A DNA stretch of 22,686 nt, taken from a virus. This document shows, in pieces, positions 5,998-22,623 of the stretch (position 1 is its first letter; every line of letters begins with the position of its first letter). Under the pieces are notes generated by a model, which saw nothing but the letters and a program-made list of their open reading frames with translations, was not told the origin of the DNA and ran no database searches. The DNA lies in IMG/VR virus record IMGVR_UViG_3300025168_000724, positions 1-22,686 of that record; one strand, given 5' to 3'. The translations under genes were made by a program, and so were the position numbers.

Positions 5998-7431
5998 ATG
6001 GCAACAGTAAATATACCTTCGGGTTTATCAGCTACTCCATCAAATGTTGCAGTCGCAACAACATCAAACTATGTAGGTAGTGCTAGTTTACTAGCAACCT
6101 CTGTAGGTACTGCAGCAAATGTACCTTTACATAAACGTGATGTGGATGAGCAGTTAGTTAAGCGATACGGTGATCAAGGTATCACTGGATTAATGGAACT
6201 AATGGGTTCTAAAAAAGAAACAACAGCTAGGACTTACGAGCACTACGAAGAAACACACCTTCATAATTACTTTGAAGGGGTAATGGGATCCTCTGGTGAT
6301 TTTGCAATTAGTGATACAGATTATCAAGATGGACTTGGTAACACTTCTCTTCGTGATGGTGATATTATCATGGGTGGTTCAGGTGCTTTGTACTATGTAA
6401 CTGCAGAAGATGCTGCACAACCTGGTCATGACTTTACAATTAAAAATGTATCAGATGGTAATGTATCTGCCGCAACTCAAGATACTAAGTTTTGTGTTGT
6501 AGGTAATGCTTGGGCTGAACAATCAGGTCAACCAACAGGTATCACGCCACGTGTTCACCAATACCAAAACAGTACTCAAATTATTAAGGAGTCGTTTATT
6601 GTTTCAGGTTCTGAAGCAACTAACGCTGTTTACGTAAAGGTTAACTCTCCAGAGTTTGGTTCTGGTTACTTATGGTACTTACAGGGTGAGGCTGATACTT
6701 ACCAACGTTTTATGGACTACTCTGAGCTTGCAATGATTATTGGATCTGCAGGTGATAGTACTTTATCTAATGCTGCTGGAGAAGAAGATGGTTCTGCTGC
6801 TGCATTCTTAAAAAATCAAGTTATCACTACAGAAGGTCTTTTACCATTTATTGAAAATAAAGGACAGTCTATGGATCTTGGTTCTTCTGCAATTACAATG
6901 GCTGATTTTGACGCTGCTGTTAAGTCTTTAGACAAGTACAGAGGTGCAAAAGAGATGGCTCTTTACGCTGGTATTAACTTATCTTTAGATATTGATGACT
7001 TATTAGCTTCACAAGGTGCTTACGCAGCAGGTGGTGCTAACTACGGTACTTTCGCTAACAACAAAGATATGGCGTTGAATTTAGGCTTCAACTCGTTCTC
7101 TCGTGGTGGTTACACTTTCCACAAGAAAACTTACGACCTATTTAATCGTCCTGACTTGTTAGGTGGTACTGGATTTAACTACAATGGTTACGGAATGTGT
7201 ATCCCTATGGATTCACAGAAAGATGCTAAGTCTGGTGAGAAAATTCCTTCGTTACGTATGCGATACAAAGCTGCTAACGGATACTCTCGTGAGATGGAAC
7301 ACTGGTTAACTGGTTCTGCAGTTCTACAAAACAAGACTAACGAAACAGATGAGTTACGTTGTAACTACCGTACTGAACGTGGTTTTGAAGGATTTGCTCC
7401 TAACCGTTTCTTATTGTTCAAGAAATCATAA
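5998..7431 (+). CDS. Major capsid protein (HK97-fold candidate)
   Basis: This 477-residue protein should build the icosahedral shell. The call rests on position (portal, scaffold, then this), length, an A-rich start region and a terminator-like hairpin just after it, both typical of a highly expressed gene. Residues about 1-45 are a Ser/Thr/Ala-rich flexible arm; residues about 50-90 (KRDVDEQLVKRYGDQGITGL, then TTARTYEHYEETHLHNYFEG) resemble the extended-arm and spine region of phage capsid proteins of this group; the middle has Gly-rich beta segments and QIIKESFIVSGSEATNAVYV. The C-terminal part is mixed alpha/beta and ends in NRFLLFKKS. No N-terminal protease domain is fused and no cleavage site can be assigned. 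Codon choice here is visibly more uniform (many GGT, GCT, CGT) than in neighbouring genes, consistent with strong expression. Confidence 0.85.
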   Translation: MATVNIPSGLSATPSNVAVATTSNYVGSASLLATSVGTAANVPLHKRDVDEQLVKRYGDQGITGLMELMGSKKETTARTYEHYEETHLHNYFEGVMGSSGDFAISDTDYQDGLGNTSLRDGDIIMGGSGALYYVTAEDAAQPGHDFTIKNVSDGNVSAATQDTKFCVVGNAWAEQSGQPTGITPRVHQYQNSTQIIKESFIVSGSEATNAVYVKVNSPEFGSGYLWYLQGEADTYQRFMDYSELAMIIGSAGDSTLSNAAGEEDGSAAAFLKNQVITTEGLLPFIENKGQSMDLGSSAITMADFDAAVKSLDKYRGAKEMALYAGINLSLDIDDLLASQGAYAAGGANYGTFANNKDMALNLGFNSFSRGGYTFHKKTYDLFNRPDLLGGTGFNYNGYGMCIPMDSQKDAKSGEKIPSLRMRYKAANGYSREMEHWLTGSAVLQNKTNETDELRCNYRTERGFEGFAPNRFLLFKKS

Positions 7432-7445
7432 TTAATATAGGTAAG

Positions 7446-7479
7446 GGAAGGGGGAAAAACCTCCTTCCTAAATCTTTTA
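7446..7479 (+). terminator. Hairpin after the capsid gene, partial terminator
   Basis: A 9-base-pair stem (7446-7454 with 7460-7468, one G-T pair) encloses an AAAAA loop; downstream is only a short T run (TCTTTT, 7474-7479). The stem is strong but the T tract is short and slightly displaced. No promoter motif is seen between it and the next gene, so it most likely reduces rather than stops read-through, or protects the 3' end of the capsid message. Confidence 0.7.
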
Positions 7480-7491
7480 AAAAAAATAATT

Positions 7492-8187
7492 ATGACAAAA
7501 GAAAAATATTTATACTTTAACACTAGCGATAAAGCAAGTTTAGTTATTATTCCTGCTGGTTCTGATACCCTTACATTTACTGCTGTTGAAACAGGAAGTG
7601 GTGTTGCAAATGATATATCTGTTCAGGTTGATTCTGGCGTTGCTGCTGGGACTATTACTGTTACAGGTAGAGCTATTGTAATTGGTGTTGGTACTGGGGG
7701 TGATAAAGGTGCTGATGATATTGCTACAGCTTATGCTGTTGATGCTGCTGGTCCAAATGCTGCAAGAGCTTTAGCTACACTTGCTGTTTCTGGAACTGCT
7801 CACGTAGCTGCTGACTTAGATTCAGGAGTTCAATTTCTTAGTTCTTCTGATGTTATGTATCCTTTATCTTCATTTGCTGGTATGGCTCCTGGTGCAACAG
7901 GAACTTTACTTCTTTACTTTAAGTCTTTAAGAAATTATGACGGACAAGTATCTTTAGCAAACGGAGTGGTTATATCTGACGTAGTTACGTTAACTTTAGC
8001 TGCAAATCAAACTCATAAAGATGCTATGCAATCTATATGTGATAGACTTTCCTCAGCTCAAGGTGGATACGGATTTGTAGTCATAGGTGATGACGCTGAT
8101 GGAAGTGTAGAATCTGCAATTACAGGCTTGAATGCTTCTAACCCTATAGGAACATTAACAATAGCAGCTACTAACGCTGACTCTTAA
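7492..8187 (+). CDS. Decoration-type protein, paralog 1, with inserted domain
   Basis: This 231-residue protein begins with KEKYLYF, as do the next two genes, and its second half (from about residue 118, VMYPLSSFAGMAP, then LLLYFKSLRNYDG and GVVISDVVTLTL) aligns by eye along the whole body of those proteins. Between these lies a roughly 100-residue segment (about 17-115) that the paralogs lack. It has beta-strand, Gly/Ala-rich linker and helix order (TLTFTAVETGSGVANDISVQ, then TITVTGRAIVIGVG, then ADDIATAYAV), reminiscent of small Ig-like or decoration modules found in many phage structural proteins. Location just after the capsid gene suggests a capsid-surface or head-fiber protein. There is no signal peptide or membrane segment. 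The exact role is unknown. Confidence 0.75.
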   Translation: MTKEKYLYFNTSDKASLVIIPAGSDTLTFTAVETGSGVANDISVQVDSGVAAGTITVTGRAIVIGVGTGGDKGADDIATAYAVDAAGPNAARALATLAVSGTAHVAADLDSGVQFLSSSDVMYPLSSFAGMAPGATGTLLLYFKSLRNYDGQVSLANGVVISDVVTLTLAANQTHKDAMQSICDRLSSAQGGYGFVVIGDDADGSVESAITGLNASNPIGTLTIAATNADS

Positions 8188-8199
8188 AAATATAAAAAC

Positions 8200-8568
8200 A
8201 TGAACGAAAAATATTTATACTTTAGAGATCAGGCTGGTACTGACGATGGCTCAGACGATTCTTGTTGTTTTCCAATGTCTTCACTTACAGGGTTATTACC
8301 TGCAAGTGCTACAACTTTAAGTGTTTTCTTTAAATCAATGAAACAATATGATGGTGATACTATTGGCTCAGGCGAAGTAGTAACTACAGATATTGTTACC
8401 TTGACTATAACTGAAGATAAACACAGAGAGGTTATACAAGACATTATGGATTCACTTTTATCGAATGACACAATGATAACTATTGGTGACGATAGAGTTC
8501 CAACTTCATTTTGTTCTACGAACATTAGTGCAGTGGCTTCTATAGTAATAGATGGTGCTAACTCTTAA
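8200..8568 (+). CDS. Decoration-type protein, paralog 2
   Basis: This 122-residue protein shares a common plan with its two neighbours: EKYLYFRDQAG at the start, DSCCFPMSSLTGLLP at about residues 20-34, SVFFKSMKQYDGD in the middle, then EVVTTDIVTLTITED and a helical segment (HREVIQDIMDSLLSN) before a final pair of strands. The double Cys before FP is present here and in paralog 3 but is MYP in paralog 1. The protein is small, acidic and predicted soluble, with alternating strands and one helix. It starts 12 bases after paralog 1 behind an A-rich leader, so the genes are one transcription unit. Position after the capsid gene suggests a head decoration or auxiliary capsid protein; this is not proven. 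Confidence 0.75.
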   Translation: MNEKYLYFRDQAGTDDGSDDSCCFPMSSLTGLLPASATTLSVFFKSMKQYDGDTIGSGEVVTTDIVTLTITEDKHREVIQDIMDSLLSNDTMITIGDDRVPTSFCSTNISAVASIVIDGANS

Positions 8569-8579
8569 TTCTTATAACA

Positions 8580-8984
8580 ATGAATGAACTTTATTTATAC
8601 TTTAGAACGGTTGCTGCCGCAGATGATGATGCTTTAACAGGAGACTCTTGTTGTTTTCCGTTATCTTCTTTTGCTGGTATTGAACCGACTAGTGCGGTTA
8701 CAAACACAGTTGGTAACGCAGTCACTATATACTTTAAATCTATCATTAACTATGATGGTGTTGATACAGATAATACTGCACTTCACTCTGACGAGGTTAT
8801 TGTTGTTTTAGATTCTACTGCTACTGTAAAAGGTTTTATGGAAGAATTTGTTGAAGCTACTAATTTAGCTAAAGCAAAGCCTAACAAAAACTTCCTTGTA
8901 GTGGCTGACGATTCATCTTCGGAGTACTTTTCTTCGTTGATAAACAACGTTAATGCAATTACTATTCAAGCTATACTAGCTTAA
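8580..8984 (+). CDS. Decoration-type protein, paralog 3
   Basis: This 134-residue protein has the family features NELYLYFRTVAA at the start, GDSCCFPLSSFAGIEP at about residues 21-36, VTIYFKSIINYDGVD in the middle, SDEVIVVLDST and then a helix (KGFMEEFVEATNLAK). DNA similarity to its neighbours is still visible: 16 of 17 bases at 8643-8659 match 8257-8273, and 19 of 20 at 8661-8680 match 7864-7883. This points to tandem duplication from a common ancestor. It follows paralog 2 by 11 bases and is followed by a strong terminator, so it closes the unit. Three paralogs could give separate capsid-surface positions or oligomers of mixed subunits; that is inference. Confidence 0.75.
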   Translation: MNELYLYFRTVAAADDDALTGDSCCFPLSSFAGIEPTSAVTNTVGNAVTIYFKSIINYDGVDTDNTALHSDEVIVVLDSTATVKGFMEEFVEATNLAKAKPNKNFLVVADDSSSEYFSSLINNVNAITIQAILA

Positions 8985-9006: not shown

Positions 9007-9030
9007 GGAGGGGAGAAATCCCCTCCTTTT
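9007..9030 (+). terminator. Rho-independent terminator after decoration genes
   Basis: A perfect 8-base-pair GC-rich stem (9007-9014 with 9019-9026) closes a GAAA tetraloop and is followed by TTTT (9027-9030). It stands 22 bases after the stop of paralog 3. The stable tetraloop and direct T run make it the cleanest terminator in the window. Confidence 0.85.
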
Positions 9031-9064: not shown

Positions 9065-9946
9065 ATGACACCAACAAAAACTCGTAAGGCTGTTACGCCT
9101 CCTACGTCTACTAAGGTCGAAGCTAAAGCTCCCGTAGTAGAAAAAAAATTCACACCTCAATTTACTAACAAGAAACAAGATTTTAAACCTTCTGTTTATG
9201 TTTTAAGAACAAAGTCTAGAAATCCAAGGACTAAGATGCCTCAATACCCTGTTGTTTCTTTATTAAAGGCTGAGGATATTATATTTGACCCTACAAAGGG
9301 GGAAAATAGAAAGATTAGATACGTTCCTGGAGAGGCTTCTATTTTTGCAGATGAGCAACCAAAGGAGGCTAAAATGAGAGAGCCTATTTCTTTTACTAAT
9401 GGTTTTCTTTTTGTCGAACACACTAATCCCACCTTAAAGCTTTATTTAGATACCTGTAACGCTAACGGTAGTAATCCTCATAGGATTAAGTCTAAGAATG
9501 TTTTATTTACCGTAAAAGACGAAGAAAAGTCTGCACAAGATAGAATAGCTAAAGTAGCCGATGTTATGGATGCTGTACAAAGTGCCCTTAAAATGCCTCT
9601 AAATGAGCTTGTAGGGTACGCAAAGGTATTAGGTGTCAACACTAACAAGAGTGTAGATGAGATCCGTTGGGATATGAAAGTTCAAGCAGAGAAAAACCCT
9701 GCAGCTTTCTTAGCAGGTATGAATGATCCTCGTACAGAGATGAAGCAACTGTTATTAATGGCTGAGGAATCAGGTATTATCTCTATGAAGAAGACAGGTG
9801 TAACTTGGGTGTCCTCAGGTAATACAATATGTGTCCCTGCAATTGGAGTTAAGCCTATCGAGAGAATGGTAGACTTCTGTTCTGAAGGCGAAGGAGAGCA
9901 GATATACTCTGAGATAGAGCGTAGACTAAAAGCGATTAATGGATAA
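9065..9946 (+). CDS. Conserved phage structural-block protein, function unknown
   Basis: This 293-residue protein sits between decoration and connector genes and is bracketed by two terminators. The first 50 residues are Lys/Thr/Pro-rich and probably disordered. The core (about residues 55-150) has SVYVLRTKSRNPRT, then IRYVPGEASIFADEQ, PISFTNGFLFVEHTNPTLKL and YLDTCNANGS: a pattern I recall from uncharacterised proteins near capsid genes in other marine phages, where an 'expected-feature' strand is followed by a short helix. The second half (about 165-293) is helical, with LNELVGYAKVLGVNTNKSVD resembling a small SAP/HeH-like helix-loop-helix, then strands and a C-terminal helix. The function is not known. 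No promoter motif is obvious in the 34 bases before its start, so it probably depends on read-through past 9030. Confidence 0.75.
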   Translation: MTPTKTRKAVTPPTSTKVEAKAPVVEKKFTPQFTNKKQDFKPSVYVLRTKSRNPRTKMPQYPVVSLLKAEDIIFDPTKGENRKIRYVPGEASIFADEQPKEAKMREPISFTNGFLFVEHTNPTLKLYLDTCNANGSNPHRIKSKNVLFTVKDEEKSAQDRIAKVADVMDAVQSALKMPLNELVGYAKVLGVNTNKSVDEIRWDMKVQAEKNPAAFLAGMNDPRTEMKQLLLMAEESGIISMKKTGVTWVSSGNTICVPAIGVKPIERMVDFCSEGEGEQIYSEIERRLKAING

Positions 9947-10770: not shown

Positions 10771-11973
10771 ATGGCACTAGATTATACAGATATAGACGAA
10801 GTAGTTAACGACTTTCAGTTAATGATAGACGATACCTCTTACGATAAAGAGGCTAAGGTTTACCAATTAAAGTTATTAGCATTACAAGGCTTAAGAGAAC
10901 TTAAGTTTGATGCAGAGCAGGAGGTTAAGACTAGTACGCTTTTAGTTGACTCTACGACTCTTCAGTGTACTCTACCTACTGATTACGTTAAACTATTAAG
11001 GGTTGGGTATAAAAATGACGAGGGAGATTTTGTTCCCTTAGGTAATAACCCAGACTTATCTTTAGATGCATCTGTAGTATCTCAGGTTAATGATGATACT
11101 TACGATGAAAACAACCCTTACTACCATGTAGACTTAGGAAAAAAGTTTGGTGTAGGTGGAGGAAAAAACTCTTTAGGGTATTATAGATTAAATAGAAATG
11201 ACAACACTATAAACTTCTCTTCAGGTGTATCTGGTAAGACTGTATTTTTAGAGTATATATCTGATGGTGTTTCTTACGAAATGCCTAGAGACCATGTTAT
11301 TAGACTTAAGTTTAATGGTGCAGATTCTGATTCAGAATTTCAAATAATAGATGAAACTCTTTTAAGATTACCTAAAATAAATGACGCAACTGCTAGTGAG
11401 ACCTTTACTTTTTCTACTACTCAAACAACTACAGCTTCTACCTCAATCTTTTTTCAGGATGGTGATAATGCTACAACTATTGCAGAGAGATTTTCTACAT
11501 TAATAAATGAGGGCTACCCAACTTATAGAGTTAATCCTTATAGTACTAACCTTACAGCCTCACAGAGTGGGAATGAAGTTATTTTAACTTATAACAACTC
11601 AACTGTTGTTCCTATAGCACTTACAGATACTACTTTCTCTCCTAACCATGATGGTGCTCAAATGGTTGGGTATGAGGCTGGTGTTTCAGCAGGGATTGCT
11701 TCATCCCCCTTAACAACCACAATGGAATTAGTACAACTAGGGGTAGCAGGAAGCGTTCCAAGGGTTCATAAGTTTTGTGAAGAGGCGTTACGTTGTTACA
11801 TCTATTATAAGTATATACAAAGAAAGCGTGGTATTCCTGCAAACGAGAAGCAGATGGCTAAGAGAGCCTACTACAACGAGAAAAGACTAGCAAGAGCTAG
11901 AATGATGAGTTTTAGTAAAGAGACTGCTATGCAGACCTCTAGGAAAGCATTCAAACAATCACCAAAGCTTTAA
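10771..11973 (+). CDS. Connector/ring-like tail protein B, with inserted beta domain
   Basis: This 400-residue protein likely forms a ring under the portal, comparable in place to P22 gp4-type tail accessory factors. Residues 1-90 (YTDIDEVVNDFQLMIDDTS, then LKLLALQGLRELKFDAEQ and LPTDYVKLLRVGYKNDEG) and residues about 328-400 (VPRVHKFCEEALRCYIYYKY, QMAKRAYYNEKRLARARMMS and a basic tail) match the beginning and end of that pattern. Between GVSYEMP (about 171) and VPRVHKF (329) lies an extra segment of about 155 residues, Thr/Ser/Asn-rich and beta-like, with a short helix TTIAERFSTLINEG; I do not recall such a segment in relatives of this protein. The gene ends six bases before the giant gene. 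Identity as ring protein is inferred from pattern and order. Confidence 0.75.
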   Translation: MALDYTDIDEVVNDFQLMIDDTSYDKEAKVYQLKLLALQGLRELKFDAEQEVKTSTLLVDSTTLQCTLPTDYVKLLRVGYKNDEGDFVPLGNNPDLSLDASVVSQVNDDTYDENNPYYHVDLGKKFGVGGGKNSLGYYRLNRNDNTINFSSGVSGKTVFLEYISDGVSYEMPRDHVIRLKFNGADSDSEFQIIDETLLRLPKINDATASETFTFSTTQTTTASTSIFFQDGDNATTIAERFSTLINEGYPTYRVNPYSTNLTASQSGNEVILTYNNSTVVPIALTDTTFSPNHDGAQMVGYEAGVSAGIASSPLTTTMELVQLGVAGSVPRVHKFCEEALRCYIYYKYIQRKRGIPANEKQMAKRAYYNEKRLARARMMSFSKETAMQTSRKAFKQSPKL

Positions 11974-11979
11974 CATACA

Positions 11980-14900
11980 ATGGCACAAGATAAGAGAATA
12001 TTTACAGGTGGGATGGATAAGGATTCTGAACCTCGCCTGATAAAAAATGGTGATTATAGACACGCAGAGAACATTAGAAACGTTGCGTCATCTGATGGTA
12101 CTTCAGGCTCTGTAGAGAATATTGAAGGAACTAAAGAGGTTGTACATAGATTTGTAAATGAAAACAACTACATTGTAGAGACTATCGAAGATGGTTTTAT
12201 TTCTGAACCACCTCTAGAGAGTATATTCTTTACTCAAAAGATTTTTATTGGGGGTAGAGAATTAAATGGAAATAAACATCAATTTTCAATATGGAGCTAT
12301 GACGAAGACAGTAATTTAGTTTACTCAGGGATAGCTCTTGACTGGGTTGGGAATAGTGATGGTACCTCTGCAGCCACGACATTATATAATAAATTTAATT
12401 CTGCTGACGGTACTATAAGTCAAAATATACCACTTATAGATAGAGTATCTGGAGAAACTTTTACAGGACACTCAGAGATATACGTACAAGGAACGGGACT
12501 ACCTTTCACTCCTTCGACTTCTATGTCTTTAGGCAATGTAGTCCTAGTAATTGAGATTATAGCAGATGTTCAAGGGATGGATTTTGACCTTGATTTTAAG
12601 AGTTCGTACAGTGAAAGTCCTGAGTTTGATTTATGGGTAAATACTGTTAACGTAGGGGATCCTCAAGGGGAGTTTCCTATACAAGTTAATGGGGCTATAT
12701 ACTTAGGATCATCAGGAGGGATTGAGCTTTCAGAGGGTGTAGCAGACTCAGTAACGGATGATGGTAGCCCTATTGGAGTTATTGATGCTATTAGTGATAC
12801 AGATGAATATACTGAATTTATTATTACTTTAGAGGGGGATAACCCTATCACACCAGCAGATCCTTTAAACCCTCTTAATATATGGAGTGTAGTTGAGAAT
12901 TTTGATGGGACTATGGATGCTATTCCATTTGGTTCTGATAAACTTAATTTTGAGGGTACCTTTAACACAGGCGATCCCTTTGAGTTTGATGGAGATCAGA
13001 CAGAGATAGCTGCAGCTTTTGTTGATAAACTTACAGATTTTTCAGCTCAGATTCTTAGTCCTGGTGCAACTTCAGCATCTACTCACACAATATCTACCTC
13101 AAATAGAAATGTTGTAACAGGGTTTAACTCTACCACTAAGCTAGCTGGTATTTTAAATAGGAATCCTATAGAGGCTGATGCTAGTGACTTCTACCTTTTA
13201 GAGGCTTATACGTCAGAGAATGACTTTAACTCAAATATCCCTAGAGGTTTTTCTGTATCTAGTAATACCTTAACTATATCGGGAGATGAAGTTATTTCAG
13301 GGTCTTCTTTAAACTTCCCTGCATTCTTATCTAAAGGAAAAACTTATAAGATAGAGGCTAATATATCTGCGTTTTCTTCTTCAGGAAATAGTATAAAGTT
13401 TTTTGATGGTAAAGGGTACAGTGAGGATATAAGTGGTGTTAATAATACTTTTTCTTATACGTTTACATCTGAGGTTGGTAGATCTAACTTTAGTCTTGAA
13501 GTAAGTAGTGATTTTGCAGAGGAAGACTCTGTAACCATTTCAGGTATAAGTATATCAGAGTATAAGCAACCTGAGACAGAGTTAAGAATTTTAGTTAGGA
13601 GTGCAAAGCTTTTTGACTTAGTATTTGGAGACGATGAAGAGACTGTTAAAGAGAACTTTAAAGAGGGTAATTTAAATAGAAATATTGACTTTATTACAGG
13701 AGTTAGTGCTAAGATTGAAGTTAACAGTCAATCCTCTACTGCGTATGATGACCTTGTTATTGATTATCAGGAGTCACAACAACAGATAGCTGAATTAGAG
13801 GCAACCATCAATACCTTAACCATTCAGTTGAATCAGTTAACTACGGAGTATAACTTAACGTTAGGGAATCTTAACGCTGCTAATGGGTTGAGTAGTAGTA
13901 ATGCTGTAGGTTCTTTAAACTTATTAAATGCAGATTTAAGTAATCTAAATCAAATAATTACTCAAAACCAAGGTGCTTCAGAAGCGATAAATCTTTTGAC
14001 TGGGAATATTGAAACTCAAGCTTCTGAGATAGCAAATTTAACTTCTCAACTAAGTGGTTTGAATGATGAAATTGCATCTTTAGAAGCTGCTTTAGTAGAG
14101 GCAGAGGCATCTAGTAGTAGTGATATTCAAGATATTCAAGATCAATTAGATATTGCAGACGATACTATAAATAATATAAATTCCCAAATAGCTAATGTAA
14201 TAGGGGAGGGTCAACAAGTAAGTGATTTAATTTCAGCTTATCAAGCTAATCAAGCTCAGGTAACTTCTTTGACTTCTGCAATTGGTGAGATGATAATGAC
14301 CCTTAACAATGCTAACCTTTCTGATACTGACTTACAGGATGATGTTAATACTCAAATTGCATCTTTAGAATCTGCTATACAGGCTTTATTAGGTATAAAT
14401 ACTACTATTGATGCTGATACGCAAAGTCTTCAGGGTCTTGTTGATGCAGTTTCAAGCCTTCAAGCTGATTATACAGGAGTACTAGAGGTAATTAGGACTT
14501 TGGCTAATGAGATGACTCAATTAGTGCCTGGAGATGAGGGGTATGCGGGTGGTACGGGTATTATATTAAACTCTAACTATGCTAATTACGGTGCAACTCT
14601 TGGAGGTATAATTGTTAGCTTTAATACTGTTATTCAAGATGCTTACGATTTAGCTAACGCTTATGAGGATGAGATTTCTAGTCAAGCTGCTTTTGAAGCC
14701 CAAGCATTAGAGGCAGCACAAGCTGCTGCTGCTGCTGCAGAAACTGCCTTAAGTGCTGTTCAAGCTGAATTAGACGCTGCTCTTACTGCTGAAGGTGTGA
14801 CACAAACCACCTTAGATGCTGTTCAAGTTGAATTAGATGCTGCTGTTGCAGCTAATGTATTACTACAGAGTGAAGCTGATACTATTTTAGCTGATTTAGC

Positions 14901-17900
14901 AGATGCTATGGCAAACCAAGAGGATGGTGTGTCTCAAGCTGATGTTGACGCTGCTGAGGCTGTGATTCAAGGTAGATTAGATGCTGCTTATGCAACTATT
15001 GCAGGCTTAGAAACTCAATTAGTAGTTGCTCTTGCAAACCAAGAAGATGGTATAACACAAGCTGATGTAGATGCTGCAAATGCAAGTGCAGATGCTGCTA
15101 TACAAGCTCAGACTACTGCTGAAGAAGCCTTACAAGCTTTTGAGAATAGCATGACCCTTACAAACCTTGTATCTAATGGTACGTTTGATGAGAACAGTAG
15201 CACTGGGTGGGATTTAACTCATCAAGCAACTATTGCAGAAGAAGCGTTGCAATTTTCAGAAGGTAATAATTTTGCTATAACATCTAGTGCGGTTATTACA
15301 ACAGCAGGTCAGTATATAATATCTCTTAGCTCTTCTGTAGCTAATGGTATTTCCTATTTATATAAAGAGGAAGGGAATGCTAATCTTCATATTAACAATA
15401 TAGAAAAAAGTGGGTTTAATTTATTTAACATTAATGTTACAGAGCAAGACCTTGCTGGAACTACAGAGGGTTTAACTTTTAGATTAACTGCAGCTGTACC
15501 TACAGGTGGAGAACCTCAATATATAGACAACATACAGATATTTAAAGTTCCAGATAACGTAGATATAACAACTACTATCTACAGTGAGGCTATAGACCTC
15601 CTTAACGCTCTTACTACTCAAGTTGCAAGTTTAGGAGCTGACATAGCTAATGCTTATACTTCAGATGACATAACTAATTCTTACCTTATTGGTTATGATG
15701 TAGGTTATGCAGATGGTATCCTACAACAAGATTTTACTCAAGGGGATATAGACGCTGCATTTGATGATGGTGCAGCCTCAGTAGAACAGTTGTATACTGA
15801 AGAAGGAGTGGGTGACCTTGAGGATGCTGCTGAATTAACAGGTTATAATCAAGGCCTTATTGATGGTGCTGCTTCTATAACCCCAGAAGATGGTATAACA
15901 CAAGTTGATGTTGATGGTATACAAGCTTTACTAGATACAGCAAGTAGTGACAACGCAGCTTTATCACAAACAAATACAAACCTTACAACAGATGTTTATA
16001 GCTTATTAGGCTTACTAAATGACTTAACTTTAGATATTACTAATTTTAACGTTTTTGAGTTAAATAGTGTTTTAGAAAACCTTAGCCTAATAGCCTCTAC
16101 TAATGATGGTACTATAGCTGACTTTACTTCTGATTATGTAGATAATCAAACAAGTTTAAGCAATTTTATAGCTACATTATCTCAGCAAATTCAAATAATT
16201 CAAAACACACAATCTTCAGGTACAAACGTTTACGATGAGCATAGTTTTGTTCTTTATGGAGATCTTCCTGCAAGTTATTTTGCAACTATTGGTGGTGGTG
16301 ATGTTAGTATTCTTATGAAGAATCCTGATATACCTGGATATGAAAACTACCAAGAAAGCGACCCAAATAATTTTATCAAAATTTTAGATTACAACAACGA
16401 CTCTGGATCATCATCTTTAGCTGGTTTATTTATTCAAAACTGTCATAATTTTGCTAACGGGGCAGATGATTCTCACGAAGGAAATGCAAGTATTCCACAC
16501 GCTCATTACAAAATTATAGATGGGGGATCCTCAGCAGAAACATCACTATTAAAGCTTGAGATAAAGAATTTTAACTCTGATAGTATTTTTTCTTCAACAT
16601 CTGGGCAACAGCTACATCATGAAGACTACTCCTTTGTTGATGAGAACGGAGAAGATCTAGATAGAGGTCTTCACTTCACCGTAACAGTTATGAGTGGGAA
16701 TCCTAATTGGGAATTTAGGCTGTATAGAGCTGAAGAAGGCTCTACTGCATTTGGTAATGCTTTAAATGAAAATTATACTGGAGCGTTGCAACATAAAGAT
16801 ATTCTAGCTTTTATAGGGGAAGGTGAAACATCCTATATAGAGAATGTTGATACTATAAACGTACTATCAGGAGATGTTTCTGATGTACTTAATGAAGGAG
16901 AAGCTTCAGGATTTACTGAGGGGGTTGAGTCAGGTTCTCCTGGTATAATGACTGCTACTAACACAGATTGGATATACACAACTTCTACTGGTAAATTTGA
17001 ACATGATCCTAATCCATCTGCTGGCGGCTCTGTAGAATCAGGAGATTTTTTTTATAGGACTTTTGTTGCAGAGCCAAATACTACATACGAGATAAGGTTA
17101 AAGATGTGGATGCATACGGGATCTCCATCGAACCCAGATAACAGAGCTTTTAAGGTAGACTTAGGGGATAACACCGCTTTATATCAAAACACTGTAGTTG
17201 AAGAGCCATGGACGTATAGTGACATCCCTCTTAATGCAATTTCTGATGATGGAGTTTTTTATAAGGGGGCAGGTATTAATAGCACAAGTGGTACTGGGTA
17301 TCGCTACGTAAGAATAACAACTGGTTCTGAATACAGCTCGACAGGTATAATAAGGATTCAGGCTGGGAATGGTATAGAGTATGATGAGCCAAGTGATAAT
17401 TATATTTTTTCTGGATATATAAGTGAACTCTCTGTAAAGAAAGTGACCTCTTTAGAAATTTATAATGAAGGCACTCCTCAGGGCGTAAATCTTTTATACG
17501 AAAAAACTGGTAGCTACGAGGGGAATGTAGTTAGAAACGCTGCTCCTTCTAGGGCTTATACTGGTTCAGCTAAAAGAATACTTGCTGATTTCGATACAGG
17601 TAACACTACAGTAGTACCTATTGTTTCAGGTGGGTATAAGTGTATAGGATCTTACGAGGATAAACCTAAAAGTAAGGTTTATTACTTCTTGATTAACGAA
17701 GCTACTGGTAAGAAATTTGATTGTATACTAGAGTATGACCTAACAAATGACTCTATTAGTACTGTATATCAAGACGATAGAGCCTCTAGTGACGGTAGCA
17801 ATAACAACATATTAAACTTTAGTGATAGGCACCTTATAACAGGTGTAAGCAAGGTTGATGACATCCTTTACTGGACAGATAACCTTAATAGACCTAGAAA

Positions 17901-20900
17901 GATAAATGTTGAGCTTGCAAAGCAAAACGAAAGAAACATAGAGAATTGTAAGTTCTTATTTAAAGATGCTTACTATAGAAGTTTAGTATCAACTGTTTAT
18001 GTTGGAACTGGGTCTAACAATCACCCGTTCAAAGAGGATGATGATATATACACTCAATTAAATACAGTATCTGGAATTTCCACAATAGGGTTTAACGGTT
18101 ACTCTAAAATTACAGGAATAGTAAGGAAACCTAACCCTGGAATTACGTTTAACGTAACCCTAGGAAGCCCTGTAATCACAGCATCATCAACTCTACATGG
18201 ATTATCCAGTAGTTATATTGGTGACTTTATAGGAATACAGGACTCAGGAAACTTCCCTTACTACTACCAGATAGAGTCTATAAGTGGAACTAGTATTACC
18301 TTAACCACAAATTATGGTGAGGCTGATAATGTAGCTGCAAATCCTGTTCAGGTAGGTGGGGCAAATGCTGTGGGGGTGATTACAGATTCTCCTTGGCCTG
18401 GATCTTTCTCTGCTGTACCTGGTCGTTTATTATACGCTGACCCTTCGTCAGTATATGGTGAGGCTAAGGCACACTCACCACTTATTAGTTATGGTAGCTA
18501 TCAAGAGAAGAGTAAGTACTTTGACGTTGTAAAACATCAACCTACGTTTAAACCTAGCGTAGAGTTTGATATAGATGCAAACGTTGCTACAAACAATATC
18601 CTTGATAACGTGTTCCAATTTAAGTATAGGTATACACATGTTGATGAAGAAATGACTTCATACAGCCCTATATCAGATGTTGTTATAGACCCACACTTTG
18701 CTTTAAATGCTGCTGTTAGTGCTGAGGATTATACCTCTATAGCTAACAAGTTAGACATCACTTATGACGATACTATATCTGACGTAGAGACTATAGAGAT
18801 TGTAGCTAGAAAGGGTAATGATGGAGAGTTTTTCCTTGTTGATACACTTCAAAACAACTTTATAAAACACCTTAAGAAATTAAAGAATGATCTTATAGGC
18901 GAGAGTGATAATGAGTATACTGATATAGAGTCTAACGTAGCATTTTATAATAATGGTACGTATCCATTTATAGATAAAGCGGACTCAACTAAGTTGTATG
19001 ACGCTGTACCTAAGAAAGCTAAAGCTCAAACGATACTATCAAACAATAGACTTGCTTACGGTAATGTTGTAGAGGGGTATGACAACACTAAGATGGTTAT
19101 ACAATCTGAGTTTAAAAACGATGGTGGAGTTTCTTTAGAATCAAGGCAAGTAGATGTACCTTATAATGGTAGTAGCTTTGGAGAGTCTGAGTTTATTTTA
19201 GGACCAAACGATGGAAACTCTACTTATAGACCTCAGTTAGATTTAAACGGGTTAGATTTAGGTCCAGATAATTCTCAATATATAAATATTGATTTAGGTT
19301 TTAGTGCATTTTTCACTCAGCCATTTACTAGTGGGCTTAAAAGAGGTGGTAGCATTAGTGCTAGCTATACAGTTACTGGTTTTGTAGATGTAGACCTTCT
19401 TTGTAACGAAGTAGCTAACAGAATTAATAATGAATCATTTATTGGTGGTGCTGATATAAATCATGGACCGCACACAAATAAAAGAGTTACTGCAGAGGCT
19501 ATAGGAGGTGGAATTATAACCCTTCAGTTTGAATGTACTCCTTCAGGAAGTGAAGGTATGAATACTGCTGAAATCTCAAGTTTTAACGAGGTAAATAATA
19601 GCTCCTTCATCAGTGGTGATGTTGGTCTATCAGCCTTTAAAACAGGTGCTTTCCATAACTTTGGTGTAGCTTACTTTGATGAGACTAACAGGTGTTCATT
19701 TGTTAACGCTGCCCCTGACTATGGAGTTAATTTAGATGGTGCTAACCTTAACGGTACAAGACCATACAATAAGTTTTATACAGAGAGTGGAGGTAGTGAC
19801 TTAAGCTCAACATCTAGTCTTAAGTTTAAAATATACAACGAACCACCTAGCTGGGCTACACACTACCAGATGTATTACACAGGTAATACTACAGTAGATG
19901 AGTTTATACAGATGACTGTTGTGAACGCAAAGATTTCATCTGATGCTAATGACAAGCAAATATACTTAAGTCTTCAATCTCTAAAAGGAGAAGAATGGAG
20001 TTATAACCAAGCTAATAACTCTCAGATAGGCTATAATTACGTGGCTGGAGATAGAATTAGATTTATAAGCTTTGACCCTGGGACTGGTAGACGTAAGTTT
20101 ACAGAGTATGTAGACTTAGAGATTGCAGGAGAAGATTTATATGTAAGTGAAGATGGAGAACCAATATCTACAGACTCAACAACACAGGGGTTCTATTTAA
20201 GAATAAATGACCCTGAAAACGCTGCAGTAAATTATGGTGAAGCAGGCGAGTCTATTAGTATAGCTCACTCAGGGTTCTCATACGGATCTAGTGGGTACGA
20301 AAACCTTATAGCTGAGATATACAGACCTAAGAAAAATCTTGATGAGGATTTAATGGTTTATTATGAGGTAGGTAAAAAGTACCCTGTCACAAATGGTCGA
20401 CATATAGGTGATAGCAGTCAGGCTGGAGAGTTTATATTAAATAAAGATTTGAACACGAGAGTTTCTACTGTTCCTGCAGAGGTTTTATTAAATCAAGGGG
20501 ATGTATACTTCAAGCCTAGGAATATGGCTACTAATGAAACTGGATCAGCTTCAGAGCTGTTCTTCCCTGAGGATTACTACCTTAATGATTTCCATAGAAC
20601 GAATCATTACAGTAAGGGTAGAATAAATGTTATTAATAATAACGCCTCAGAGAGACGCTTAGAGGCTTCTGTGTACTACTCAGAGACGTACTCTAGTACT
20701 GGTTCTGTAAATGGGTTATCTAGCTTTAACTTAGCTAACACACCATACTACGACTATAATAAAAACTTTGGTTCTATACAGTCGTTAATGATGAGGGATG
20801 ATGACCTACTTATATTCCACGAGAATAAAGTTGGTAGAGTTCTAGTTCAGAAAGATATACTAACAACAGCCTCTGGAGAGGGCTTAGTATCTTTATCTAA

Positions 20901-22623
20901 TAAGGTTATAGATAACTACGTATACCTATACTCAGGAGAGTATGGATGCTGTCTACAACCTGAAAGTATAGTTAAGTTTGGGAATAAATTCTACTTTATA
21001 GATATTAAAAGAGGTGTTGCTTTAAGATTGTCTAATGATGGACTTACGGTTACATCGGATCAAGGTATGAGAGATTACTTCAGAGACCTTGGTGAGATGT
21101 ATGTTATTAACAACCCTGAAGGGCAAAAAGAATATAGCTTTAGCATTGTGGCTGGGTACGATCCTAAGTATGATGAGTATATAGTTACATTCCCTGACGT
21201 ATATCAATCAAGAGACTCATGGGGTGGAGATAAAGAAAACTGGGATTCTAGTTATGATAGGTATCAAAATAAAACACCTAAAATTATTTACGAGGGTAAA
21301 ACTATAGCTTTTAACGAGAGAACAAATAGATGGACATCTTTCTATGACTTTTACCCAGAGTATTACGCTAGAGTGGGTAGACAGTTTATAGGGTTTAAAA
21401 ATGGTAAATTGTACAAGCACAACATGACTGATAGAGGTTATCAAAACCTATATACAGGTCCTGAATCTTGGCAAAGTATGTATAACCATTTTTATAACGA
21501 TCAGTATGATTCTACAATACAGTTCCCGTTCAATATAGAACCATCTTCTGTAAAGTCTTACAACGCTATATCTTTAGAGAGTGATTCTAAGTTTTTCACG
21601 TCTATGTACACTAATATTGGGCAAACAGTTGAAGGGCCTAATAGCTTTGAGAATGGTTATAGCACGACAATAAGTACAGAGATAGGTTACAGAAAAGTTA
21701 ATGGTCTTATAAAGAACTATTCTTCAAGTGTAGGAGATGAGACCTTAATTTCAGGGACTGATACTAAATTCTTTGAGGATGTTAAAAGAGGTGATGTTGT
21801 TAAAGTATGGGGAATATCCTCTACTGTAGGCTACAAATTTAACACTAGACTGGTTGCTCAAGTAATCTCAAATGAAATTTTAAGATTATCTAGTAATATT
21901 CAGCTTACTCTTGAAGACTCTTATATGGAGGTTATAGACTACAAGACTAAGGAAGGTGTGCAGTACGCTAACATTCCATTTGTTGAGTCTAACCCTAATG
22001 AAGATTTAACATTATCATACACTGATGATCATGGCGATGGGTCAGAGTTTTTTGGTATTGGGTCAGTAAATTACCCTAGCTCTACTGTTATTTCTGATAA
22101 CCTTGGTAGCTTCACTGGAGAAGCTGGATTTGGTGTAAATAATCCAGCAAGGACTAAACCAAGTTCAATGATTGTTGGTGCTGAGTATGCTTTATATAGT
22201 CTTGGAGATTCTGACGTTGGCAGTTTATCACCATTTGGAGTGACTAGTGTAGGAGACGTGTTTACATATACTAAAAAAGTTAGCTTTGACGCAACAGAAG
22301 ATAACAATATTAGTGTTATATCAACAGACTACAAGTTGTATCTTCAAAAAGAAGACGGGAGCACTGTATTTTTAGGATACGCTTGGGGTCGTGGGACTAC
22401 TGTACACTTTGTGAAGGCTGAGTCTTATAGTCCTCCTGTAGATATTATAGGGTTCCTATTTATAGTTAAAGATGGTAACGTAGAGGGTGAGAGAATGAAG
22501 GGTCAGTACATGATGACAACCCTAACAACCGAACATCCAGGTGAAGCATACACATCAAAGTATAAGTTTAACCTATACGCTGCTAACGCTGATGTAGATA
22601 AGAGTGAGCTTAGTAATAAATAA
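11980..22623 (+). CDS. Giant tail/muzzle-type virion protein with large internal insertion
   Basis: At 3547 residues, this is about 47% of the window. The first 55 residues (RIFTGGMDKDSEPRLIKNGD, then YRHAENIRN and SVENIEGTKEVV) and residues about 1887-3547 match the start and body of a tail protein common in crAss-like and marine phages, where it caps the short tail ('muzzle' or stabilization-type). Body marks: IGSYEDK 1889-1895, YYFLINEATG 1901-1910, ILYWTDNLNRPRKIN 1962-1976, LSNNRLAYGN 2353-2362, FKTGAFHNFGVAYFD 2553-2567, PPSWATHYQMYY 2622-2633, VKFGNKFYFIDIKRGVALRL about 2998-3017, WTSFYDFYPEYYA 3118-3130, FKNGKLYKHN 3139-3148. These include propeller-like blades. Between the two parts lie about 1830 residues with beta modules, a coiled coil (588-1057), EDG repeats and jelly-roll candidates (405-528, 1060-1191, 1661-1827). 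No signal peptide, membrane segment, enzyme motif or frameshift is visible. Confidence 0.9.
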   Translation: MAQDKRIFTGGMDKDSEPRLIKNGDYRHAENIRNVASSDGTSGSVENIEGTKEVVHRFVNENNYIVETIEDGFISEPPLESIFFTQKIFIGGRELNGNKHQFSIWSYDEDSNLVYSGIALDWVGNSDGTSAATTLYNKFNSADGTISQNIPLIDRVSGETFTGHSEIYVQGTGLPFTPSTSMSLGNVVLVIEIIADVQGMDFDLDFKSSYSESPEFDLWVNTVNVGDPQGEFPIQVNGAIYLGSSGGIELSEGVADSVTDDGSPIGVIDAISDTDEYTEFIITLEGDNPITPADPLNPLNIWSVVENFDGTMDAIPFGSDKLNFEGTFNTGDPFEFDGDQTEIAAAFVDKLTDFSAQILSPGATSASTHTISTSNRNVVTGFNSTTKLAGILNRNPIEADASDFYLLEAYTSENDFNSNIPRGFSVSSNTLTISGDEVISGSSLNFPAFLSKGKTYKIEANISAFSSSGNSIKFFDGKGYSEDISGVNNTFSYTFTSEVGRSNFSLEVSSDFAEEDSVTISGISISEYKQPETELRILVRSAKLFDLVFGDDEETVKENFKEGNLNRNIDFITGVSAKIEVNSQSSTAYDDLVIDYQESQQQIAELEATINTLTIQLNQLTTEYNLTLGNLNAANGLSSSNAVGSLNLLNADLSNLNQIITQNQGASEAINLLTGNIETQASEIANLTSQLSGLNDEIASLEAALVEAEASSSSDIQDIQDQLDIADDTINNINSQIANVIGEGQQVSDLISAYQANQAQVTSLTSAIGEMIMTLNNANLSDTDLQDDVNTQIASLESAIQALLGINTTIDADTQSLQGLVDAVSSLQADYTGVLEVIRTLANEMTQLVPGDEGYAGGTGIILNSNYANYGATLGGIIVSFNTVIQDAYDLANAYEDEISSQAAFEAQALEAAQAAAAAAETALSAVQAELDAALTAEGVTQTTLDAVQVELDAAVAANVLLQSEADTILADLADAMANQEDGVSQADVDAAEAVIQGRLDAAYATIAGLETQLVVALANQEDGITQADVDAANASADAAIQAQTTAEEALQAFENSMTLTNLVSNGTFDENSSTGWDLTHQATIAEEALQFSEGNNFAITSSAVITTAGQYIISLSSSVANGISYLYKEEGNANLHINNIEKSGFNLFNINVTEQDLAGTTEGLTFRLTAAVPTGGEPQYIDNIQIFKVPDNVDITTTIYSEAIDLLNALTTQVASLGADIANAYTSDDITNSYLIGYDVGYADGILQQDFTQGDIDAAFDDGAASVEQLYTEEGVGDLEDAAELTGYNQGLIDGAASITPEDGITQVDVDGIQALLDTASSDNAALSQTNTNLTTDVYSLLGLLNDLTLDITNFNVFELNSVLENLSLIASTNDGTIADFTSDYVDNQTSLSNFIATLSQQIQIIQNTQSSGTNVYDEHSFVLYGDLPASYFATIGGGDVSILMKNPDIPGYENYQESDPNNFIKILDYNNDSGSSSLAGLFIQNCHNFANGADDSHEGNASIPHAHYKIIDGGSSAETSLLKLEIKNFNSDSIFSSTSGQQLHHEDYSFVDENGEDLDRGLHFTVTVMSGNPNWEFRLYRAEEGSTAFGNALNENYTGALQHKDILAFIGEGETSYIENVDTINVLSGDVSDVLNEGEASGFTEGVESGSPGIMTATNTDWIYTTSTGKFEHDPNPSAGGSVESGDFFYRTFVAEPNTTYEIRLKMWMHTGSPSNPDNRAFKVDLGDNTALYQNTVVEEPWTYSDIPLNAISDDGVFYKGAGINSTSGTGYRYVRITTGSEYSSTGIIRIQAGNGIEYDEPSDNYIFSGYISELSVKKVTSLEIYNEGTPQGVNLLYEKTGSYEGNVVRNAAPSRAYTGSAKRILADFDTGNTTVVPIVSGGYKCIGSYEDKPKSKVYYFLINEATGKKFDCILEYDLTNDSISTVYQDDRASSDGSNNNILNFSDRHLITGVSKVDDILYWTDNLNRPRKINVELAKQNERNIENCKFLFKDAYYRSLVSTVYVGTGSNNHPFKEDDDIYTQLNTVSGISTIGFNGYSKITGIVRKPNPGITFNVTLGSPVITASSTLHGLSSSYIGDFIGIQDSGNFPYYYQIESISGTSITLTTNYGEADNVAANPVQVGGANAVGVITDSPWPGSFSAVPGRLLYADPSSVYGEAKAHSPLISYGSYQEKSKYFDVVKHQPTFKPSVEFDIDANVATNNILDNVFQFKYRYTHVDEEMTSYSPISDVVIDPHFALNAAVSAEDYTSIANKLDITYDDTISDVETIEIVARKGNDGEFFLVDTLQNNFIKHLKKLKNDLIGESDNEYTDIESNVAFYNNGTYPFIDKADSTKLYDAVPKKAKAQTILSNNRLAYGNVVEGYDNTKMVIQSEFKNDGGVSLESRQVDVPYNGSSFGESEFILGPNDGNSTYRPQLDLNGLDLGPDNSQYINIDLGFSAFFTQPFTSGLKRGGSISASYTVTGFVDVDLLCNEVANRINNESFIGGADINHGPHTNKRVTAEAIGGGIITLQFECTPSGSEGMNTAEISSFNEVNNSSFISGDVGLSAFKTGAFHNFGVAYFDETNRCSFVNAAPDYGVNLDGANLNGTRPYNKFYTESGGSDLSSTSSLKFKIYNEPPSWATHYQMYYTGNTTVDEFIQMTVVNAKISSDANDKQIYLSLQSLKGEEWSYNQANNSQIGYNYVAGDRIRFISFDPGTGRRKFTEYVDLEIAGEDLYVSEDGEPISTDSTTQGFYLRINDPENAAVNYGEAGESISIAHSGFSYGSSGYENLIAEIYRPKKNLDEDLMVYYEVGKKYPVTNGRHIGDSSQAGEFILNKDLNTRVSTVPAEVLLNQGDVYFKPRNMATNETGSASELFFPEDYYLNDFHRTNHYSKGRINVINNNASERRLEASVYYSETYSSTGSVNGLSSFNLANTPYYDYNKNFGSIQSLMMRDDDLLIFHENKVGRVLVQKDILTTASGEGLVSLSNKVIDNYVYLYSGEYGCCLQPESIVKFGNKFYFIDIKRGVALRLSNDGLTVTSDQGMRDYFRDLGEMYVINNPEGQKEYSFSIVAGYDPKYDEYIVTFPDVYQSRDSWGGDKENWDSSYDRYQNKTPKIIYEGKTIAFNERTNRWTSFYDFYPEYYARVGRQFIGFKNGKLYKHNMTDRGYQNLYTGPESWQSMYNHFYNDQYDSTIQFPFNIEPSSVKSYNAISLESDSKFFTSMYTNIGQTVEGPNSFENGYSTTISTEIGYRKVNGLIKNYSSSVGDETLISGTDTKFFEDVKRGDVVKVWGISSTVGYKFNTRLVAQVISNEILRLSSNIQLTLEDSYMEVIDYKTKEGVQYANIPFVESNPNEDLTLSYTDDHGDGSEFFGIGSVNYPSSTVISDNLGSFTGEAGFGVNNPARTKPSSMIVGAEYALYSLGDSDVGSLSPFGVTSVGDVFTYTKKVSFDATEDNNISVISTDYKLYLQKEDGSTVFLGYAWGRGTTVHFVKAESYSPPVDIIGFLFIVKDGNVEGERMKGQYMMTTLTTEHPGEAYTSKYKFNLYAANADVDKSELSNK
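13741..15150 (+). other. Coiled-coil segment of about 470 residues
   Basis: Residues 588-1057 are rich in Leu, Ile, Ala, Gln, Asn, Ser and Asp in heptad-like spacing, for example QQQIAELEATINTLTIQLNQ and EIASLEAALVEAEASSSSDI, ending in Ala-rich helices with EAAQAAAAAAETALSAVQAE. A short Gly-rich break (GYAGGTGIILNSNYANYGAT) occurs at about 861-880. A helix this long would be a rod of tens of nanometres if continuous, although the breaks imply bends. Confidence 0.75.
14911..15078 (+). repeat. Tandem EDG-type repeat, copies 1 and 2
   Basis: GCAAACCAAGARGATGGT begins at 14911 and again at 15034, 123 bases (41 codons) apart. The encoded peptides are NQEDGVSQADVDAA (979-992) and NQEDGITQADVDAA (1020-1033), followed by similar Ala-rich helix. 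The acidic loop pattern could bind a cation, but this is not shown. A third, more distant copy lies at 15886. Confidence 0.8.
15886..15927 (+). repeat. EDG-type repeat, copy 3
   Basis: The 18 bases at 15886-15903 are identical to 15043-15060 in copy 2. The peptide is EDGITQVDVDGI at residues 1303-1314. A degenerate relative, FTQGDIDAAFDDG, starts at about residue 1252. GYDVGYADG and GYNQGLIDG motifs lie nearby, giving a small family of acidic and Gly-rich helical repeats. Confidence 0.75.

Follow-up and report, generated by a model that had tools for sequence, protein, structure and literature searches.

Three tandem genes, P1, P2 and P3, directly follow the major capsid protein gene of an uncultured phage, and the locus raises the question of how this group of genes arose and what its products do. 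The window, that is, the whole stretch of DNA that was analysed, is an entire IMG/VR record of 22,686 bases, in which TerL (phrog_6681), portal (phrog_6547), a 360-aa gene, the capsid gene, P1-P2-P3, a 293-aa gene, two more virion genes and a 3547-aa gene are arranged in this order; the three-gene cassette, the two genes flanking it and the hairpins around it are all on the plus strand. The capsid gene (5998..7431), which forms the left flank of the cassette, matches phrog_13704 at E 8e-72 and PF17236 (SU10_MCP) at E 1e-5, which makes its identification in an earlier note on this DNA plausible. Residues about 100-180 of the capsid protein were far more variable (modal identity 38-64%) than residues 280-380 (92-99%), and may be an exposed insertion. 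The right flank is the next conserved gene (9065..9946), which encodes a basic protein of 293 aa (phrog_34748, median pI 9.1). This gene occupies the position of crAss001 gp33, which is annotated with a dsDNA-binding domain, and the hhalign probability for the pair was just 12%. Further downstream, the 400-aa virion gene (10771-11973, phrog_13977) encodes about 390-414 aa in the window, L005 and L042 and about 241 aa in L009, L010 and L037; over 24 partial matches it had no correlation with the capsid tree, and it may be a second variable site or the carrier of an optional insert. The 3547-aa ORF (11980-22623) contains coiled-coil-like stretches, matches phrog_14478 (virion structural, E 5e-86) and, at residues 3167-3204, weakly matches the C-terminal domain of the crassvirus muzzle protein (E 4e-4). 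The closest isolates by capsid protein, at 27-28% identity, are Maribacter phage Panino, the Flavobacterium elemo phages and Cellulophaga phages Calle and phi38:1, and the clade of the window consists of uncultured marine podovirus-like phages that are relatives of Cellulophaga phi38:1 and Calle. The capsid gene was not found in the bacterial genomes searched. Considering that the nearest isolates by capsid protein are phages of Maribacter, Flavobacterium and Cellulophaga, the hosts of this clade are probably marine Flavobacteriia.

P1 (7492..8187, 231 aa), P2 (8200..8568, 122 aa) and P3 (8580..8984, 134 aa) belong to one family, as the earlier note had proposed. Pairwise BLASTP gave E values of 2e-16 for P1-P2, 3e-13 for P1-P3 and 2e-18 for P2-P3, and the pair scores were 16-20 standard deviations above the shuffle mean, beating every one of the 500 composition shuffles made for each pair. 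When the three proteins were aligned, the N-terminal xYLYF, P(L/M)SSxxG, FKSxxxYDG and late β-strand segments all lined up. The match of 19 of 20 bases between 7864-7883 and 8661-8680 was correct as the note had given it. As a sign of recent duplication, this match was rejected, because it encodes the PLSSFAG motif, which is conserved in distant relatives too. The AlphaFold2 model of P3 (pLDDT 84.8, pTM 0.80) presented five strands, one helix and two strands, and the body shared by the three proteins is confidently predicted to be a β-rich fold. Comparison of the body model with the PDB, using Foldseek and VIA-align, revealed no significant match among solved structures; PH-like domains were among the top weak matches, with Z up to 4.6, which is below a meaningful level. 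In BFVD, the model matched only four unnamed proteins of uncultured viruses (E 5e-7 to 3e-5).

The extra residues that the earlier note had counted as about 100 in P1 were found in P1 alone. They form an insert of about 107 aa (residues about 13-119; 7528..7848) between the N-terminal YLYF strand and the shared body, absent from P2 and P3 and present in 10 of the 10 P1 orthologs aligned. The insert resembles β-sandwich domain II of the phage tail sheath (PF17481, phrog_279, 3hxl_A). Seven of 10 P1 orthologs matched PF17481 (Phage_sheath_domII) weakly, with a best E of 1.1e-4 over nearly the full model, and the best score for the insert, 23 bits, is below the Pfam curated cut-off of 31.4. Five orthologs matched phrog_279 (tail sheath; best E 1.6e-5). 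In the PDB, the insert profile found 3hxl_A (DSY3957), which we take to be a sheath homolog, in the first place at E 0.008, and an annotated tail sheath in the second at E 0.34. Since the three libraries (Pfam, PHROG and PDB) agree, a common origin of the P1 insert and sheath domain II is likely. The AlphaFold2 model of P1 with ten orthologs was unreliable (pLDDT 38.8), and the fold of the insert is therefore suggested by sequence profiles only. P1 as a whole was considered as a tail sheath protein and rejected, because it has no convincing subtilisin-like domain; its match to that sheath domain, PF04984, covered only 48 residues inside the body common to P2 and P3 and scored 18.2 bits against a cut-off of 31.4.

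To place the cassette among related phages, one scan of viral contigs with the capsid gene gave 102 relatives, 80 capsid loci were fetched, and in total the analysis took in about 90 related loci of this gene, all on public viral contigs. In every locus with enough downstream sequence, the capsid gene and the 293-aa gene homolog were separated by one, two or three genes; wherever the locus was complete, these slot genes lay directly 3' of the capsid gene, within the head gene block. The relatives with one or two copies that the earlier note had suggested looking for thus both exist, and they use the same slot. The tree set contained 47 single, 5 pair and 12 triplet rows, and two of the triplet rows (L004 and L061) were cut by contig ends. 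As judged from profiles, the slot genes appear to form one small protein family that includes some distant members. The MAQIIGDKL and MERYLYLEV types were recovered (E about 1e-3 to 1e-9) by a profile from which they had been left out, and membership is doubtful only for L040 and, with E from 0.008 to about 1, for the MAKFIRFKD type. The family was confined to the slot in 16 longer contigs, and with six slot proteins as tblastn queries no match was found in 50,697 phage records. In the isolates phi38:1, elemo and Panino the slot is empty, with the capsid gene, a terminator-like hairpin and the homolog of the 293-aa gene in succession and 69-90 bp between the genes. In another locus, L166, the normal slot gene was accompanied by two more ORFs before the next gene (590-994 MFIDETDKFLYFQI..., overlapping a 969-1430 ORF), which are perhaps a partial second cassette.

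The cassette of the window is bordered by two terminator-like hairpins. One (7445..7469) lies between the capsid gene and the triplet; it is also present ahead of the triplet in the triplet loci L042, L048 and L058 and absent from the single-gene locus L005. The other, GGAGGGGAGAAATCCCCTCC-TTTT (9007..9026), closes the cassette, and a similar hairpin was located 3' of the slot in the relatives inspected and directly 3' of the capsid gene in the empty-slot isolates. Because the slot gene precedes the hairpin corresponding to that of the isolates, it is probably on the same transcript as the capsid gene. Promoter matches at the cassette were no better than those in shuffles. Between the slot gene and the terminator of L055, L056, L057, L059, L062, L064 and L068, we also observed the element CTGTCTTGAAAxGATATACAGxCAG, which has inverted-repeat character, is conserved in its subclade and is missing from the triplet locus L074.

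When loci with closely related flanks were compared, the slot differed from its surroundings, and phages whose flanks agree at 96-100% were found with unrelated cassettes. DNA identity among L055, L056, L057 and L059 was 98-99% in the capsid gene and 96-98% downstream, against 46-69% in the slot, and L037, L039, L044 and L040 combine nearly identical flanks with unrelated slots. A triplet locus (L074) and three single-gene loci (L062, L064 and L068) are mostly 95-100% identical over about 3 kb on each side. In such pairs with near-identical flanks, identity was back to about 95-100% within about 100 bp of the gene ends. The edges of the slot are at gene boundaries: to its left, the capsid gene has a conserved 3' end, and to its right come the spacer, the terminator and the start of the next gene. 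Similar cassettes were likewise found between dissimilar flanks: the triplets of L042 and L058 are 94% identical in DNA over 1468 bp, with capsid genes at 71% and downstream sequence at 80%, and the two-gene cassettes of L008 and L025 are 99.5% identical over 815 bp, with 83% and 87%, respectively. Different slot alleles were found in 16 of 32 close pairs, which are not all independent.

The same pattern was obtained from the distances between proteins. The Spearman correlations with the distances of the capsid protein were 0.75 for TerL, 0.76 for portal, 0.81 for g360, 0.76 for the next gene and 0.87 for g240, and those of the slot in the same analysis were -0.02 to 0.00. A separate run gave 0.72 for the next gene and -0.05 for the slot, and in a hold-out set of 25 new loci outside the first analysis the values were 0.72 and 0.02, respectively. 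Low values were also obtained for two further downstream genes (g400 and giant), for which few loci were available and the matches were partial. On the capsid tree, the triplet label requires 8 changes, 7 of which are forced by starred branches, and the allele classes require 37. Taken together, whole alleles are replaced at a fixed slot, and the cassette retains no trace of the phage's own ancestry. Slot type and capsid protein did not vary together, so that no fit to a particular capsid could be seen. Over the final 180 bp of the capsid gene, loci with a common slot allele resembled each other no more closely than did loci with differing alleles, and the recombination tracts were thus not seen directly. 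Within slot alleles, the median dN/dS was 0.26, compared with 0.23 for the capsid gene; considering this purifying selection, the variety of the slot comes from replacement and not from fast point change.

The history of the triplet was read from a tree of slot proteins, in which P1 was entered without its insert and which is based on few columns and a short search. All triplet members formed one clade (SH-aLRT 96), and P3 (99) and P1 (88) were each monophyletic, with P2 unresolved around them. As P1 and P3 are each one clade across relatives, the duplications should predate the spread across capsid lineages, and the triplet appears to have arisen once, by an old tandem triplication, and then to have spread as a block. 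The earlier note had described a decoration gene family expanding in place, with one copy gaining a new domain. The single family is supported, and so is the added domain of one copy, which is like sheath domain II; the expansion in place is not supported. A recent local tandem expansion, with one copy gaining a domain in this lineage, would explain why three paralogs stand in tandem and why one copy has an insert; it is hardly credible, however, when P1 and P3 orthologs across capsid lineages are 59-99% identical to those of the window, when the insert is in all P1 orthologs, when the close relative L005 has one unrelated gene in place of the triplet, and when the orthology tree contradicts it. 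The triplet was instead passed on whole among unrelated capsid lineages, and the capsid tree calls for at least 7-8 gains or losses of it. Because most relatives have a single gene in this slot and some a pair, the variation reflects replacement of alleles rather than local growth. The exchange pattern might also be produced by metagenome assembly joining different phages at conserved flanks, given that every locus with the family is an assembled contig and no isolate has the family. We regard such an artefact as very improbable: the same alleles turn up in many independent samples and have themselves diverged from lineage to lineage, both flanks agree where slot alleles differ, identity breaks at gene ends where chimeras would break within the conserved flanks, and the hold-out set gave the same result.

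As to function, we lean towards a reading in which the locus is a fixed exchange slot for accessory head proteins, with selection favouring variety at the surface of the particle. We infer this role, and with it a location in the virion, from the position of the genes, their probable co-transcription, the β-rich body, the virion-type insert and the replacement of the slot amid stable neighbours; the "decoration" role named in the earlier note is plausible. Alleles would be exchanged by homologous recombination in the conserved flanks, and their products would be made late from the capsid transcript and sit on the capsid, with the shared body as an anchor and the variable parts exposed. Replacing an exposed protein would be favoured in that it alters what the particle sticks to or what recognises the particle. 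The domain inserted in P1 would be one more exposed module; the products of the three-gene allele may assemble into a hetero-oligomer, and those of the one-gene alleles into a homo-oligomer. C-ending two-fold codons made up 0.32 in the slot genes, similar to TerL, and 0.47 in the capsid gene; with this TerL-like bias, hundreds of copies per particle are less likely than a sparse head component. A more speculative possibility is that the locus specifies a "coat type" of the capsid. One- and three-gene alleles would then be interchangeable and supply a homo- or hetero-oligomer, one paralog of which carries a transplanted tail-sheath domain, at one surface position. Recombination would pass the whole coat type from phage to phage, whichever capsid and neighbouring virion genes they carry, much as a serotype cassette of the phage head would be passed on.

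Two other roles have to be weighed against accessory head proteins. The slot proteins are very acidic, with a median pI of 4.1-4.6 in all slot classes, and could for this reason be counter-defence proteins that are not placed at the surface but enter with the ejected DNA or are produced in the cell, and whose swapping tracks the defence repertoires of hosts. Such acidity would suit DNA mimicry, the codon bias is not capsid-like, and counter-defence genes are often exchanged. However, the slot is part of the late head block, preceded there by the capsid gene and followed by a terminator, the capsid protein itself is acidic (pI 5.1), and the P1 insert resembles a virion domain, that of the tail sheath, which together make a counter-defence role improbable. 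PADLOC gave no match for the slot proteins, which says little because it lists defence and not counter-defence proteins. It is also rather unlikely that the slot genes encode assembly helpers or minor head-to-tail parts that are exchanged without selection for variety. Mosaic exchange is general in tailed phages, and both the purifying selection within alleles and the TerL-like codon bias would agree with neutral mosaicism of this kind. Yet the phylogenetic signal stays strong in five neighbouring structural genes (0.75-0.87) and is completely lost in the slot, half of the close pairs, not all of them independent, differ in their alleles, and replacements as divergent as these should not be tolerated in a part with a conserved interface.

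Accessory head proteins selected for variety are thus the reading that we carry forward. Rapid gene swapping in phages is usually ascribed to tail fibres, and here it involves a small capsid-adjacent cassette. That this cassette is unlinked from its flanks while five structural genes stay linked points to selection on the function of head-linked proteins. Near-isogenic phages that differ mainly in the slot constitute a natural experiment. A single gene in some phages seems to do the same job as three diverged paralogs in others, which offers a test of the change from homo- to hetero-oligomer, and the system would also let the movement of domains between tail and head proteins be tested. In kind, each element has precedents: marine phages are known to have hypervariable structural islands, head accessory genes to be exchanged, and decoration proteins to exist (PMC6487183, PMC7029224, PMC7602432). 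In a partial search of the literature, which does not prove that none exists, we found no described exchange locus beside a phage capsid gene; a gene-precise capsid-side slot, in which 1-, 2- and 3-gene alleles of one family are interchanged with full loss of linkage and one paralog has a sheath-type insert, was not found described there.

Compared with known systems, the P1 insert is like Phage_sheath_domII in that its best ortholog covers nearly the whole model, and P1 is unlike it in scoring below the curated threshold, in being a small protein of a podovirus-like phage and in having no convincing sheath subtilisin-like domain. Like phage morons, the slot genes are inserted between genes that are adjacent in phi38:1, elemo and Panino, next to terminators; unlike morons, they fill the slot always in this clade, come from one family and have no known prophage expression. 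In crAss001, the domain that forms the capsid auxiliary protein gp36 is split by the insertion of a second one, and two different head fibres, gp21 and gp29, bind different hexon pockets (PMC10172136). The window shares with crAss001 a related overall layout of head and neck and a muzzle-like giant protein downstream; in contrast, the gene right after the crAss001 capsid gene is gp33, and the slot family was not detected among the crAss001 genes tested. With gp36 and the head fibre gp29, the slot proteins gave hhalign probabilities of about 1%, as single sequences and with weak power. T4 Hoc/Soc, lambda gpD, phage L Dec and T5 pb10 are head accessory or decoration proteins of tailed phages; decoration proteins are accessory gene products for which gene transfer between viruses has been suggested (PMC7602432). 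The slot proteins are likewise small, β-rich and encoded in the head block beside the capsid gene; unlike known decoration proteins, they have no detectable sequence or fold match, occur in 1-3 copies, are replaced as alleles without phylogenetic signal and have no capsid-level codon bias. Viral genomic islands, or metaviromic islands, have been described in marine phages (PMC6487183, PMC7029224), and the slot is like them in that its gene content varies locally between genomes with near-identical flanks, the genes of such islands often being structural or for host recognition. In contrast with these islands, the variation here is not spread over a large tail-fibre region but is held in one precise slot, with 1-3 genes of one family beside the capsid gene.
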